From: Deltaproteobacteria bacterium GWA2_45_12
Lineage (GTDB): Bacteria > UBA10199
DNA length: 45,177 nucleotides
Assembly (NCBI GenBank): GCA_001797365.1
Contig: MGPH01000059.1
Span: 34,493-79,669, forward strand
Direction: 5' to 3'
Shown: piece after piece, positions 27,127 to 30,480 of the stretch
Numbering within the stretch: the first letter of the stretch is position 1
Layout of the letters: the number at the start of each line of letters is the position of its first letter
Translations under genes and position numbers: made by a program
Notes under the pieces: model-generated
Database searches by the model: none
Seen by the model: the letters and a program-made list of their open reading frames with translations, nothing else
What the model was told of the DNA's origin: nothing

Positions 27127-27861
27127 ATGAATTACACAACCATCATTCTTGCTGCAGGCATGGGAACTAGACTCCATCCTCTTACACTTAATAAACCCAA
27201 ATGCCTTCTTGAAATAGCGGGAGAATCTTTTATTTCAAGGACCATTAAAACCTGTCTGAACCATCACATCAAAAAATTCATCATTGTCCTTGGTTTTGAG
27301 GCGGAACAGATTAGCCAACATATCCACAATACTTATCCAAACCTGCCCGTTCAGTTTGTCATCAATAAAAAATATAACGAAACCAATACGGGCTATTCCC
27401 TATTCCTGGCTTTAAAACAACTCACCGGATCTTTTGTCCTATTTGATGGCGACCTATTGTTTGATCCAAAACTTTTGAATCTTTGCCTTGAAACAGACTC
27501 CAAAAATGCCATGGTGACAGATATACGCATCGAGCGCCTGGATGAAGAAGCTCTTAAAGCACGCGCCAACGCAGACAATGCCATCATTGAGCTGGGGAAA
27601 AAAATTCCTTTATCCAAAGCCCATGGTGAGTTCATTGGTTTATGTCGTTTTTCAGAAAAAAATGCCCTCACTTTAAGATCAATGATGGAAACCACTTTTG
27701 CCAACTCTTCAAACAACCAGCTTTATTATGAGGATGTGATATCCAACTCGCTGGATAAATATGAAAAAGTGGCCCTTGTTCCCACAAAAGATTATCTATG
27801 GTCGGAAGTGGATACATTGGAAGATCTTGAACACATCCGATTAAATTGGAACCTTGCATGA
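27127..27861 (+). CDS. Nucleotidyltransferase (sugar- or alcohol-phosphate type)
   Basis: The 244-residue protein has the nucleotidyltransferase signature at its start, IILAAGMGTRLHPLTLNKPKCLLEI (6-30), the phosphate-binding loop. The metal-binding Asp follows in FVLFDGDLLFD, and the second conserved acidic segment near the end is LWSEVDTLEDLEHI. Such enzymes make NDP-sugars, CDP-choline or CDP-inositol. The next gene encodes a CDP-alcohol phosphatidyltransferase overlapping by ATGA, so a CDP-activated polyol or choline is the reasonable guess (inference). I chose the ATG at 27127. The upstream part of the open frame overlaps the PBP1A coding sequence and has no family match. Confidence 0.82.
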   Translation: MNYTTIILAAGMGTRLHPLTLNKPKCLLEIAGESFISRTIKTCLNHHIKKFIIVLGFEAEQISQHIHNTYPNLPVQFVINKKYNETNTGYSLFLALKQLTGSFVLFDGDLLFDPKLLNLCLETDSKNAMVTDIRIERLDEEALKARANADNAIIELGKKIPLSKAHGEFIGLCRFSEKNALTLRSMMETTFANSSNNQLYYEDVISNSLDKYEKVALVPTKDYLWSEVDTLEDLEHIRLNWNLA

Positions 27862-28727
27862 CAAACCAAAACATGACTTTTGAAAAATCCCTCAAGCCAG
27901 CGGCTGTTGAAGAATGGCTGGATGTCGTTTTTTACAGGAAACTGGCTCACAAGCTTGTTCCCCTTTTCATTAAATTAAAATTTTCTCCAAACATGATATC
28001 GGGTTTAAGCCTGGCTAGTGGGTTATTAGCCTCACTTTTTGTTTTTCATGAGCATTTCTGGGCTTCCGCCCTTTGCATGGTCATGGCCATCATTTTTGAT
28101 TGCAGTGACGGCCAGGTAGCCAGGCTTACAGGAAATAAAAACCCTTTTGGCCGCATCATCGATGGTGTTTTTGACATGATATGGATTGTCAGTTTCTGGA
28201 TCTTACTGGACCGCAGTCCCTACTTTACCAAACACCCCATCCCCCACATCACTTTACTCATGTCGACTGCCGGTTTCTTTTTTGTTGTCCATTGCTGGCG
28301 CTATGATGGTGTAAAAATAAAATATCTCGAGCGGGTACAACCTGGTTATTCGGATAAAGATCTCGACCTTTCTCAAATTAGAGTCTTGCTCAAGGAAGAA
28401 TGGAAAAAGAAAAATATTCTCACCTGTTTTTTATGTGTGTGTATGGCTTTTCAGATGTATTTCTTTGTAAGGGGAAAACATCAAAAAACATCCATCTTCC
28501 CCTCCTTAGAGCAACAAGAGGAAGCCAGGTTAAACTTGACTCCTGTGATGCGTTTGTGGAGCTGGCTGGGTGAAAGCCATCATAACACCCTCATGATTTT
28601 AGGAATTCTTTTGGCCCCATGGACGCCAGCCGGGCTGTTGTTTGTCTTTTTTTACATTACTATTCCACTTAATTTTTTATGGATTGTTTCGGAATGGAAA
28701 TGGAAGAAACTATATAAGAACATGTAA
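27858..28727 (+). CDS. CDP-alcohol phosphatidyltransferase family protein
   Basis: These membrane enzymes move a phosphoryl-alcohol or phosphatidyl group from a CDP donor. The 289-residue product has the exact family signature D81-x2-D84-G-x2-A-R-x8-G98-x3-D102-x3-D106 (in DCSDGQVARL, then FGRIIDGVFD). It has at least five hydrophobic segments and a larger loop between the second and third pairs (about 160-200). The ATG overlaps the stop of the preceding nucleotidyltransferase gene, so the pair is probably translated together. The stop TAA is supplied by the GTAA end of a 28-base palindrome at 28724. The convergent gene at 28796-29926 is a second member of the same family. Acceptor and product are unknown. 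Confidence 0.87.
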   Translation: MTNQNMTFEKSLKPAAVEEWLDVVFYRKLAHKLVPLFIKLKFSPNMISGLSLASGLLASLFVFHEHFWASALCMVMAIIFDCSDGQVARLTGNKNPFGRIIDGVFDMIWIVSFWILLDRSPYFTKHPIPHITLLMSTAGFFFVVHCWRYDGVKIKYLERVQPGYSDKDLDLSQIRVLLKEEWKKKNILTCFLCVCMAFQMYFFVRGKHQKTSIFPSLEQQEEARLNLTPVMRLWSWLGESHHNTLMILGILLAPWTPAGLLFVFFYITIPLNFLWIVSEWKWKKLYKNM

Positions 28728-28776
28728 GGGCAATTCATGAATTGCCCTTACAAAGGCCCTTACAAAGGCCCTTACA
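28724..28776. repeat. Perfect 28-base palindrome plus direct repeats
   Basis: GTAAGGGCAATTCA (28724-28737) is followed by its exact complement TGAATTGCCCTTAC (28738-28751). After it AAAGGCCCTTAC is repeated twice in tandem (28752-28775). The palindrome overlaps the stop codon of the upstream plus-strand gene and sits between two convergent genes. A similar core, GGGCAATT/AATTGCCC, occurs at 31892. Confidence 0.9.
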
Positions 28777-28795
28777 AGACCTCTACAAAGACCCA

Positions 28796-29926
28796 TCACC
28801 TGCGTCGCACCAAGGACAAAACAAAAGACGCCCCATGGACCAAAAATGTGGCGCTAATAGCGACTGTGCTTATCCAGAATAACAGCACTCTTAAATCAAG
28901 AATCAGCAATACAAACATTAAAAAAACAAAAAAATCCCGTTTCATGAGGGGACGCACTTTTTCAAACCATCCTTCTTTGGCTGATGCCGGTTTATCAGAC
29001 CATGCCGGTACAAAATCCTTCACATTGGCACTCTTTGTCCGTGTCATCATCTGGTAATAAAGAAAAAGACTCACCAAAAAAGACAGCCCAAAAAGGACCC
29101 ATCCCCCATTGAAATAAAAAGTGTTTCCCGTTGTCCTGAAAAGACCGACAAAAACCCCAAGCCAAAAAAGATTATTGGCCAAGTCATCCGCTATCGTGTC
29201 AAACCAGGCTCCAAAGCGGCTGGATAAGATCTTTATTCTGGCCACTTCACCATCGCAACCATCTATAATGGAAGAAAACTGCATCAAAATAGCCCCTAAC
29301 ACTCTCCACCCATAATTGTTGTTCATGATCAAAAGAGCTGTCAAAACAGCCAAAGCCAAATTAACAAAAGTAATGGTATTGGGGCTTAAATCTGTTTTAA
29401 CCAACTGCCTGGTCATCGCAAAAGAAACAGGCTTGTTAAGGTGGGGAGCCACCCAGCCTTCGGTTTTGTCTTTAATATTTTGAAAAATCTTTTTTTCAAT
29501 CGCCTTCAAACTGGCCTTGGAATCTTCCAAACGATGCCACCACATGGGGTTTATCTTTCCCAAATAATCACTCGGATTGGTGATCTTCTTGACATGGACC
29601 CAACGAATAAATTCAGACTCGTAATGATACTGTGCCGAAAAAATAGAAACACCACTCTCAAAATGAGGGGTATCGTGGGACAACTGGATATATTCAAGCA
29701 TGCCAAAACGGTTTAACAGGGGTCTTAAATTTTCAAGGTGTCTGGAGACCATCCAAATTTCTTTGAAACCAGCCTGACGAAGCTGTCTTAATGTACGAAT
29801 GAAAATGGGCAAACCAAGAACCATCTTTTGGGCCAAATCGGCTGACTCAACAACAAGAACAGCCCTGACGTTTTCAGAGATGCGGCCATCAAGATCGGAT
29901 TGGAACCCTGAGGTAATTATTTCCAC
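28796..29926 (-). CDS. Degenerate nucleotidyltransferase / CDP-alcohol phosphatidyltransferase fusion
   Basis: The 376-residue product resembles the bifunctional IPCT/DIPPS type proteins (inositol-phosphate cytidylyltransferase joined to a CDP-alcohol phosphatidyltransferase). The N-terminal half (about 18-160) keeps the fold pattern (VRAVLVVES, LGLPIFIRTLRQLRQAGFKEIWMV) but lacks the GxGTR loop, so it is probably inactive. The C-terminal half starts HLNKPVSFAMTRQLVKTDLSPNTITF and has the exact D-x2-DG-x2-AR-x8-G-x3-D-x3-D signature in DGCDGEVARI and FGAWFDTIADD. At least six membrane segments follow. The start is GTG with GGAG 5 bases upstream, overlapping the end of the upstream gene. It converges on the 27858 gene of the same family. 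Confidence 0.8.
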   Translation of the reverse strand: MEIITSGFQSDLDGRISENVRAVLVVESADLAQKMVLGLPIFIRTLRQLRQAGFKEIWMVSRHLENLRPLLNRFGMLEYIQLSHDTPHFESGVSIFSAQYHYESEFIRWVHVKKITNPSDYLGKINPMWWHRLEDSKASLKAIEKKIFQNIKDKTEGWVAPHLNKPVSFAMTRQLVKTDLSPNTITFVNLALAVLTALLIMNNNYGWRVLGAILMQFSSIIDGCDGEVARIKILSSRFGAWFDTIADDLANNLFWLGVFVGLFRTTGNTFYFNGGWVLFGLSFLVSLFLYYQMMTRTKSANVKDFVPAWSDKPASAKEGWFEKVRPLMKRDFFVFLMFVLLILDLRVLLFWISTVAISATFLVHGASFVLSLVRRR

Positions 29927-30480
29927 GTAAGCTCCGACCTAGCCACGGGGCCTGACAAATGCAAGGTAAGCTCTTTGGTGCAAGAGGATGGAGGAATATC
30001 AAAAGATACGAGGTATGTCTTCGACCAAACATCAAGATAGGGATAGAGAAGCCTTACAAGGGGCGAGGGATTTTTGGCCAGTTTTTCTATTTTAGGCTGA
30101 TAAAAATTCCCGCACCATTCAAGATTAAGCGACCATGTTTTTTGACTATCCAAAAAGTCATCAAAGCGTCTTTCCTGGGAATAAAAAGAAACGAAAAAAA
30201 CCGTATGAGAGGCATCCAAACCCGGGATCATCAAATCGGCTGAATGAACAGAATGTCCATCGACATCGTAGGCTTGATGAGTACGGTTTTTCTGAGATTG
30301 TTTCATCTCGGTATTGAGAAGGGTTGCATGCCACAAAAGAGAAGCATTAAAATTTTGGGGGGAATAAATATGATGGGAACGCGTCCATTTTTTTAAAACT
30401 TTTTTATAGTTGGGGCCTGCAGAAGCAGACAAAGAGATAGAAACAAAAAAAAGTGTAAAAATAAATCGAACCATTTTCAT
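29917..30480 (-). CDS. Small secreted protein of unknown function
   Basis: I do not recognise a family for this 187-residue protein. Residues 1-21 form a clean signal peptide (KMVRFIFTLFFVSISLSASAG), so it is exported to the periplasm. The mature part has beta-rich segments (HTVFFVSFYS, KTYLVSFDIPPSS, ELTLHLSG) and two cysteines near residues 125 and 166 that could form a disulfide. Its start overlaps the pyrE stop (ATGA), with a GGGG sequence about 8 bases upstream, and its end overlaps the GTG of the fusion gene. The gene is thus embedded in a compact pyrE-secreted protein-lipid enzyme run; the functional link is unclear. Confidence 0.65.
   Translation of the reverse strand: MKMVRFIFTLFFVSISLSASAGPNYKKVLKKWTRSHHIYSPQNFNASLLWHATLLNTEMKQSQKNRTHQAYDVDGHSVHSADLMIPGLDASHTVFFVSFYSQERRFDDFLDSQKTWSLNLEWCGNFYQPKIEKLAKNPSPLVRLLYPYLDVWSKTYLVSFDIPPSSCTKELTLHLSGPVARSELTWK

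Follow-up and report, generated by a model that had tools for sequence, protein, structure and literature searches.

A cytidylyltransferase-type gene paired with a CDP-alcohol phosphotransferase, and a convergent AF2299-like fusion with a decayed N-terminal half, in Deltaproteobacteria bacterium GWA2_45_12

The window analysed here is a stretch of 45,177 nucleotides from Deltaproteobacteria bacterium GWA2_45_12 (assembly GCA_001797365.1, contig MGPH01000059.1), whose genome (G000) is a 2.46-Mb draft of 95% completeness; other genomes and loci compared bear G and L numbers, and sites in G000 bear C numbers. The locus in question comprises a nucleotidyltransferase gene, a stand-alone CDP-alcohol phosphotransferase gene whose start overlaps the stop codon of the former (ATGA at 27858-27861), and a convergent gene in which a nucleotidyltransferase-like half is fused to a second CDP-alcohol phosphotransferase (Table 1). 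All three genes are real, and every feature lies where the first-pass annotation of this DNA had placed it.

Table 1. Coordinates of the genes and domains at the locus, in window positions
Feature	Position	Strand	Basis
Cytidylyltransferase-type nucleotidyltransferase (type C, PntC/LicC-like), 244 aa, ATG at 27127	27127..27861	+	Open reading frame, Pfam, tree, residues, fold
Stand-alone CDP-alcohol phosphotransferase, 289 aa, ATG at 27858	27858..28727	+	Open reading frame, Pfam, tree
Convergent fusion gene, 376 aa	28796..29926	-	Open reading frame, Pfam
Fusion, N-terminal half (residues 1-130): decayed and shortened nucleotidyltransferase-like domain without GxGxR	29537..29926	-	Sequence, model, profile alignment
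Fusion, C-terminal half (from about residue 155): AF2299/DIPPS-type CDP-alcohol phosphotransferase	28796..29464	-	Pfam, PDB sequence match, tree
187-aa protein with signal-peptide-like start; lies upstream of the fusion, with a 10-nt overlap	29917..30480	-	Open reading frame, sequence

The window nucleotidyltransferase matches the Pfam family NTP_transferase with 60.7 bits (cut-off 21.2) and retains the GxGTR loop (AAGMGTRL) as well as Lys25, Asp109, Glu227 and Asp229. Its best sequence matches in the PDB are PntC / PntC-AEPT and LicC (6pd1, 1jyk; 22-24% identity). With its confident structural model (pLDDT 90.6) as query, PntC chains take Foldseek ranks 1-7 (TMq 0.83-0.87), while the inositol-1-phosphate cytidylyltransferase (IPCT) 4jd0 reaches 0.80 and LicC 0.79. 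Asp107 and Glu202 occupy, in the alignment, the amine-contact positions of PntC and LicC. For PntC, PMC6697681 reports Glu104 and Glu196 as positioned for hydrogen bonds with the amine of 2-aminoethylphosphonate (AEP), and it gives D105 and D192 for LicC. The window enzyme has acidic residues at both PntC positions, and the LicC pair likewise aligns with window 107/202 when the offset in LicC numbering is set by our own reckoning.

Three types of nucleotidyltransferase are separable by the residues at window positions 107/202 and by the nucleotidyltransferase tree. Type A, IPCT-like and either intact within a fusion or stand-alone, carries M/S in 14 of 15 sequences and M/T in one. Type B, the split nucleotidyltransferase of clusters in the class of G000 that also hold INO1, HAD, flippase and radical SAM genes, has N/E in all five. 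Type C, to which the window enzyme belongs, has D/E in 39 of 49, N/E in seven, N/L in two and H/A in one. The IPCT of T. maritima falls with type A (support 100/94), apart from type C, and the window enzyme lies outside the clade formed by that protein and the intact fused IPCTs; IPCT types carry Met/Ser or Cys/Tyr where it carries Asp/Glu, so that neither the grouping nor the residues of a stand-alone IPCT were found in it. Its tree position, key residues and predicted fold place it with PntC and LicC, activators of amino head groups, and not with the IPCT-like enzymes.

The stand-alone transferase matches PF01066 with 49.6 bits and the fusion with 47.2 bits over residues 181-355 (cut-off 22). 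Both sequences contain D-x2-DG-x2-AR-x8-G-x3-D-x3-D, which we take to be the catalytic motif of CDP-alcohol phosphotransferases, in intact form: DCSDGQVAR..G...D...D in the former and DGCDGEVAR..G...D...D in the latter. The genome has seven CDP-OH_P genes, which by reading of the tree and the neighbourhoods are two PgsA-like, one PssA-like, one at C60, the two of the window and a fusion at C36. This abundance, and the PF01066 domain common to them all, would fit an explanation in which the window transferases are PgsA/PssA-like synthases of the CDP-diacylglycerol type that merely stand beside an unrelated nucleotidyltransferase. Such an explanation is highly improbable, as PgsA and PssA are already present elsewhere in the genome (C66, C39 and C11), the pairing with a cytidylyltransferase is conserved across phyla, and both transferases fall outside PgsA, PssA and PIPS in the tree, which rules out a PgsA/PssA placement of either; their NCBIfam PgsA and PssA scores are far under cut-off.

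Type-C nucleotidyltransferase and window-type transferase (called at E <= 3.2e-39) occur in the same six of 46 genomes of the class (G000, G003, G004, G005, G013 and G028; hypergeometric 1e-7, uncorrected for kinship). G046, with E 2.6e-24 to the nucleotidyltransferase, was left out of these sets, having Tyr/Thr at the two key positions, and the G013 transferase is truncated by a contig end. The two genes adjoin in G000; in G013 they lie close by, separated by a class V aminotransferase. The partner of the window nucleotidyltransferase is the overlapping stand-alone transferase. Pair and fusion co-occur in five of six genomes each way, yet they are separable, since G007 (84% complete) encodes the fusion, and also an intact C36-type enzyme, but no pair, whereas in G013 the pair occurs and a window-type fusion does not.

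DGCDGE in the fusion is the signature of the AF2299/DIPPS clade, and in the transferase tree the window fusion and five orthologues from its class form one group (94/95) within that clade (97/92); the fusion of G014 was left out of this tree. AF2299 of Archaeoglobus fulgidus is the best PDB match by sequence, with E 9.2e-21 across the transferase half; a low-confidence model of the fusion (pLDDT 61.7) also matches it at full length in Foldseek (377 columns, TMq 0.55, 20% identity). The fusion has the AF2299 architecture, a cytidylyltransferase-like N-terminal domain followed by a CDP-alcohol phosphotransferase, with the N-terminal half modelled at low confidence. It differs in that this half is truncated, and wholly lost in two of the five orthologues (G007 and G028); CDP-glycerol as donor is reported for AF2299 alone. 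Its best NCBIfam match is NF041135 (IPCT/DIPPS), at 96.4 bits against a cut-off of 580 and over residues 128-356 only. With the bifunctional enzyme, represented by AfDIPPS, the fusion shares the order of the fused domains and the DGCDGE signature, and it has an intact relative at C36; by motif, however, it lacks a working IPCT half, its N-terminal half falling about 100 residues short of an intact domain and having no GxGxR. The likeness of this half to nucleotidyltransferases is weak by sequence and supported by the architecture: it matches NTP_transf_3 with E 0.05, below cut-off, aligns weakly but collinearly with the IPCT domain of AfDIPPS (11 bits), and reaches E 0.0015 and a probability of 16% over 72 columns in hhalign against intact IPCT. 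The first-pass annotation had seen an apparently active nucleotidyltransferase overlapping a transferase, a convergent fusion of a loop-less half to an intact transferase, and a resemblance to IPCT/DIPPS systems, and all of this holds; the fused half, which it took to be regulatory or structural, is by its motif predicted to be catalytically dead.

The loop is also absent from the fusion orthologues in G003, G004 and G005, from the fusions in those class members whose nucleotidyltransferase is split (G009, G012, G016, G024) and from those of L201, L203 and L208, the status as intact or decayed having been read in part of the fusions of the class. Intact C36-type fusions adjoin decayed G024-type ones in the transferase tree (98/92), so that repeated decay is the simplest reading: within this clade the fused cytidylyltransferase has apparently decayed more than once, while the transferase kept its motif. 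A first scan for related loci with the fusion as query gave no matches.

At C36 lies an intact IPCT-type fusion of 505 aa, neighboured by a radical SAM gene, a flippase-like gene and a GPAT-type acyltransferase. The flippase-like gene (L028 2789-3729) is split into two overlapping open reading frames of 135 and 182 aa, a frameshift or an assembly error. An inositol-1-phosphate synthase of the INO1 type is encoded at C40; of the 60 genomes searched, 46 including G000 have INO1.

In loci from other phyla, the neighbours of the pair or trio include a pyridoxal-phosphate (PLP) aminotransferase, an inositol-phosphate synthase, or the two together. Loci L201 and L203, from Gemmatimonadota, have the order aminotransferase - type-C nucleotidyltransferase - stand-alone transferase - decayed fusion - divergent stand-alone IPCT-type nucleotidyltransferase, and L208 (Myxococcales) comprises transferase, MMPL-type exporter, type-C nucleotidyltransferase, decayed fusion and flippase-like gene. 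In the Bacteroidetes loci L202 and L204 the transferase lies near a TagD-type cytidylyltransferase (116 bits in L204, cut-off 165), again a CDP-head-group enzyme. A broad survey of Gemmatimonadota with profile A4 matched 87 of 395 genomes, but type C was found in none of the 40 loci read from it (L247-L286; E 1e-6), most of which hold another branch beside a flippase; L201 and L203 are therefore the only Gemmatimonadota loci with the full cluster. In Myxococcota the nucleotidyltransferase profile matches 188 of 377 genomes sampled. Forty loci were chosen among the matches listed, mostly the best, with about ten of similar score and all later ones left out; in 17 of these a transferase on the strand of the type-C gene lies no more than 500 bp away from it, and in 24 one lies within 8 kb. 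In eight of the 40 (L325, L332, L338, L339, L342, L344, L350, L353), clusters with INO1 hold an IPCT-type domain joined to a HisC-like aminotransferase, and both of the fusions tested exceed the HisC cut-off. We know of no description of such a fusion. A PhnW-like aminotransferase of at least 250 bits occurs in two of the 40.

Within the class of G000 a cluster of radical SAM - decayed fusion - HAD - type-B split nucleotidyltransferase - PF03706 flippase - INO1 recurs at L094, L095, L096, L098, L104 and L109, its members varying by locus. PMC9246714 describes an alternative inositol-lipid cluster of Bacteroidetes with MIPS, NTP transferase, CDP-OH_P and HAD genes, and cites work on CDP-inositol as a donor for inositol phospholipids. 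That gene set matches the type-B clusters of the class (INO1, nucleotidyltransferase, HAD, CDP-OH_P fusion and LPG-synthase-like flippase), whereas the window locus has no adjoining INO1, which is at C40, nor, by eye, HAD gene, and has another type of nucleotidyltransferase.

The first-pass annotation had proposed that the split pair provides the cytidylyl step for an inositol system. Spelled out, the window nucleotidyltransferase would be an inositol-1-phosphate cytidylyltransferase that feeds CDP-inositol to either transferase, yielding di-inositol phosphate or an inositol lipid. In keeping with this, INO1 is widespread and present in the genome, the top NCBIfam match of the fusion is the IPCT/DIPPS model, an IPCT comes second to PntC among the folds matched by the window enzyme, and INO1 clusters with type C in nine of the 40 Myxococcota loci. 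We nevertheless consider it unlikely: the intact fusion at C36 already covers the IPCT function, IPCT groups with type A and differs from type C at residues 107/202, and the eight Myxococcota loci with the HisC-like fusion, L201 and L203 hold an IPCT-type enzyme besides type C, which is thus unlikely to perform that step. As regards the earlier proposal, the family placement, the inositol-1-phosphate synthase, the IPCT/DIPPS-like relatives and the inactive fused half stood, and two findings that could have overturned it, a PgsA/PssA affiliation or a missing inositol-phosphate source, did not materialise. What found no support was the split nucleotidyltransferase as supplier of CDP-inositol to the fusion, given its place outside the IPCT clade, its Asp/Glu residues and its one-to-one match with the stand-alone transferase.

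On a second alternative, the window nucleotidyltransferase would be a true PntC that forms CMP-AEP, with the stand-alone transferase acting as a phosphonolipid synthase. PntC matches the window enzyme best both by sequence and by fold; near type C, L203, L337 and L354 carry PhnW-AepZ-like aminotransferases (301-327 bits, cut-off 360.8), and L201 and G013 class V aminotransferases; phosphoenolpyruvate (PEP) mutase exceeds its cut-off in two cases, G005 and the genome from which L208 comes. This alternative appears quite unlikely, as PEP mutase, over cut-off in just three of the 60 genomes, was not found in G000, G003, G004, G013, G028 or the genomes of L201 and L203, where AEP is therefore probably not made de novo. 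G005 alone among the six pair-bearing genomes shows a phosphonate pathway, with PEP mutase followed by a decarboxylase-like gene and, elsewhere, a PhnW-type aminotransferase that passes its cut-off and neighbours a PhnX-like HAD gene (L160, L178; PhnX and decarboxylase named by eye). A phosphonolipid as the general answer, suggested by the aminotransferase of G013, was rejected for G000 because PEP mutase is missing there; a choline head group was likewise rejected, choline kinase not being found in this genome. The window enzyme resembles PntC / PntC-AEPT and LicC in its acidic amine-contact positions and in the aminotransferase neighbours of type C in other phyla, but differs from them in its CDP-OH_P partner and in a genome with neither the PEP mutase expected of PntC nor the choline kinase expected of LicC.

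Building on the gene structure, motifs, family placement, pairing and clustering of the locus, we favour with moderate confidence a reading in which its two CDP-alcohol phosphotransferases are fed by different cytidylyltransferases: a Kennedy-type pair, and an AF2299-like fusion with a remnant N-terminal half that uses a CDP-polyol from elsewhere. As to substrates, donor and acceptor, we infer that the window nucleotidyltransferase would combine CTP with a small compound X-P, phosphorylated or phosphonylated and most likely bearing an amino group, to give CDP-X; the stand-alone transferase would then hand X-P on from CDP-X to an alcohol, probably in the form of a membrane lipid. An amino head group is favoured for this pair, and its product is probably an unusual polar lipid or solute. 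The N-terminal half of the fusion, its catalytic loop lost, would be at most a structural remnant. The transferase half would draw a polyol phosphate from a CDP-polyol, most likely CDP-inositol, that another enzyme makes; if CDP-inositol is indeed the donor, the intact C36 fusion, itself presumably fed by the synthase at C40, is more likely the source than the window nucleotidyltransferase. Co-occurrence, and clustering in L201, L203 and L208, suggests that pair and fusion serve one product or one membrane.

Several points weigh against this two-donor reading. For an amino head group, neither PEP mutase nor choline kinase (PF01633) was found in the genome, 95% complete as it is, and its nearest sequence to PhnW-AepZ is a general class V aminotransferase (160 bits, cut-off 360.8). 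PntC sits on a very long branch of the nucleotidyltransferase tree and is flagged for composition, and type-B enzymes, found with INO1, have Glu202 just as type C does. No transferase of the expected kind lies within 8 kb in 16 of the 40 Myxococcota loci, and the clustering with INO1 there might point to action of type C on an inositol compound. Nor does similarity of fold fix a substrate, since CpgD of Caulobacter, with IPCT as its best structural match, proved to use phosphoglycerate (PMC12275187). CpgD resembles the window enzyme as a stand-alone nucleotidyltransferase of this fold and, probably, in serving lipid head-group activation, but its substrate is phosphoglycerate, and a search of that article for the term revealed no CDP-OH_P partner. 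As AF2299 uses CDP-glycerol and does not process lipids (PMC4634129), the fusion may have a donor other than CDP-inositol and may make something other than a lipid.

A relay is also conceivable, though doubtful, in which the AF2299-type enzyme would install inositol (or glycerol) phosphate, after which the pair would attach an amino-X phosphate or phosphonate to it; the result would be a polar lipid or solute containing two phosphodiesters. It would predict type C, INO1, an IPCT-type enzyme and a PLP aminotransferase together, as is the case in eight of the 40 Myxococcota loci.

Upstream of the fusion, the 187-aa protein has no Pfam match above cut-off and has matches in 42 of the 60 genomes. 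Its homologue adjoins the fusion in G003, G004, G005 and G007, in G004 and G007 with the same 10-nt overlap. In the interval between the convergent genes (28728-28795), a perfect palindrome of 20 bp, GGGCAATTCATGAATTGCCC, precedes short direct repeats, TTACAAAGGCCC; these may form a terminator that both genes share, or a repeat element.

Head-group activation, in which a CDP-head group meets a lipid acceptor, is the Kennedy logic of eukaryotes; to our knowledge it has been proposed only sparsely for bacterial lipids. The parts of the locus are known already from AF2299, IPCT/DIPPS, PntC/LicC and the alternative inositol cluster of Bacteroidetes, and no description of the pair or trio as such was found in the literature searched, which leaves most subscription journals outside its coverage. 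The fusion represents a case of a fused cytidylyltransferase apparently decaying while the transferase keeps its catalytic motif. The pair, recurring in deltaproteobacterial metagenome-assembled genomes, Gemmatimonadota and Myxococcota, offers a small, defined target for finding what may be an uncharacterised polar lipid.

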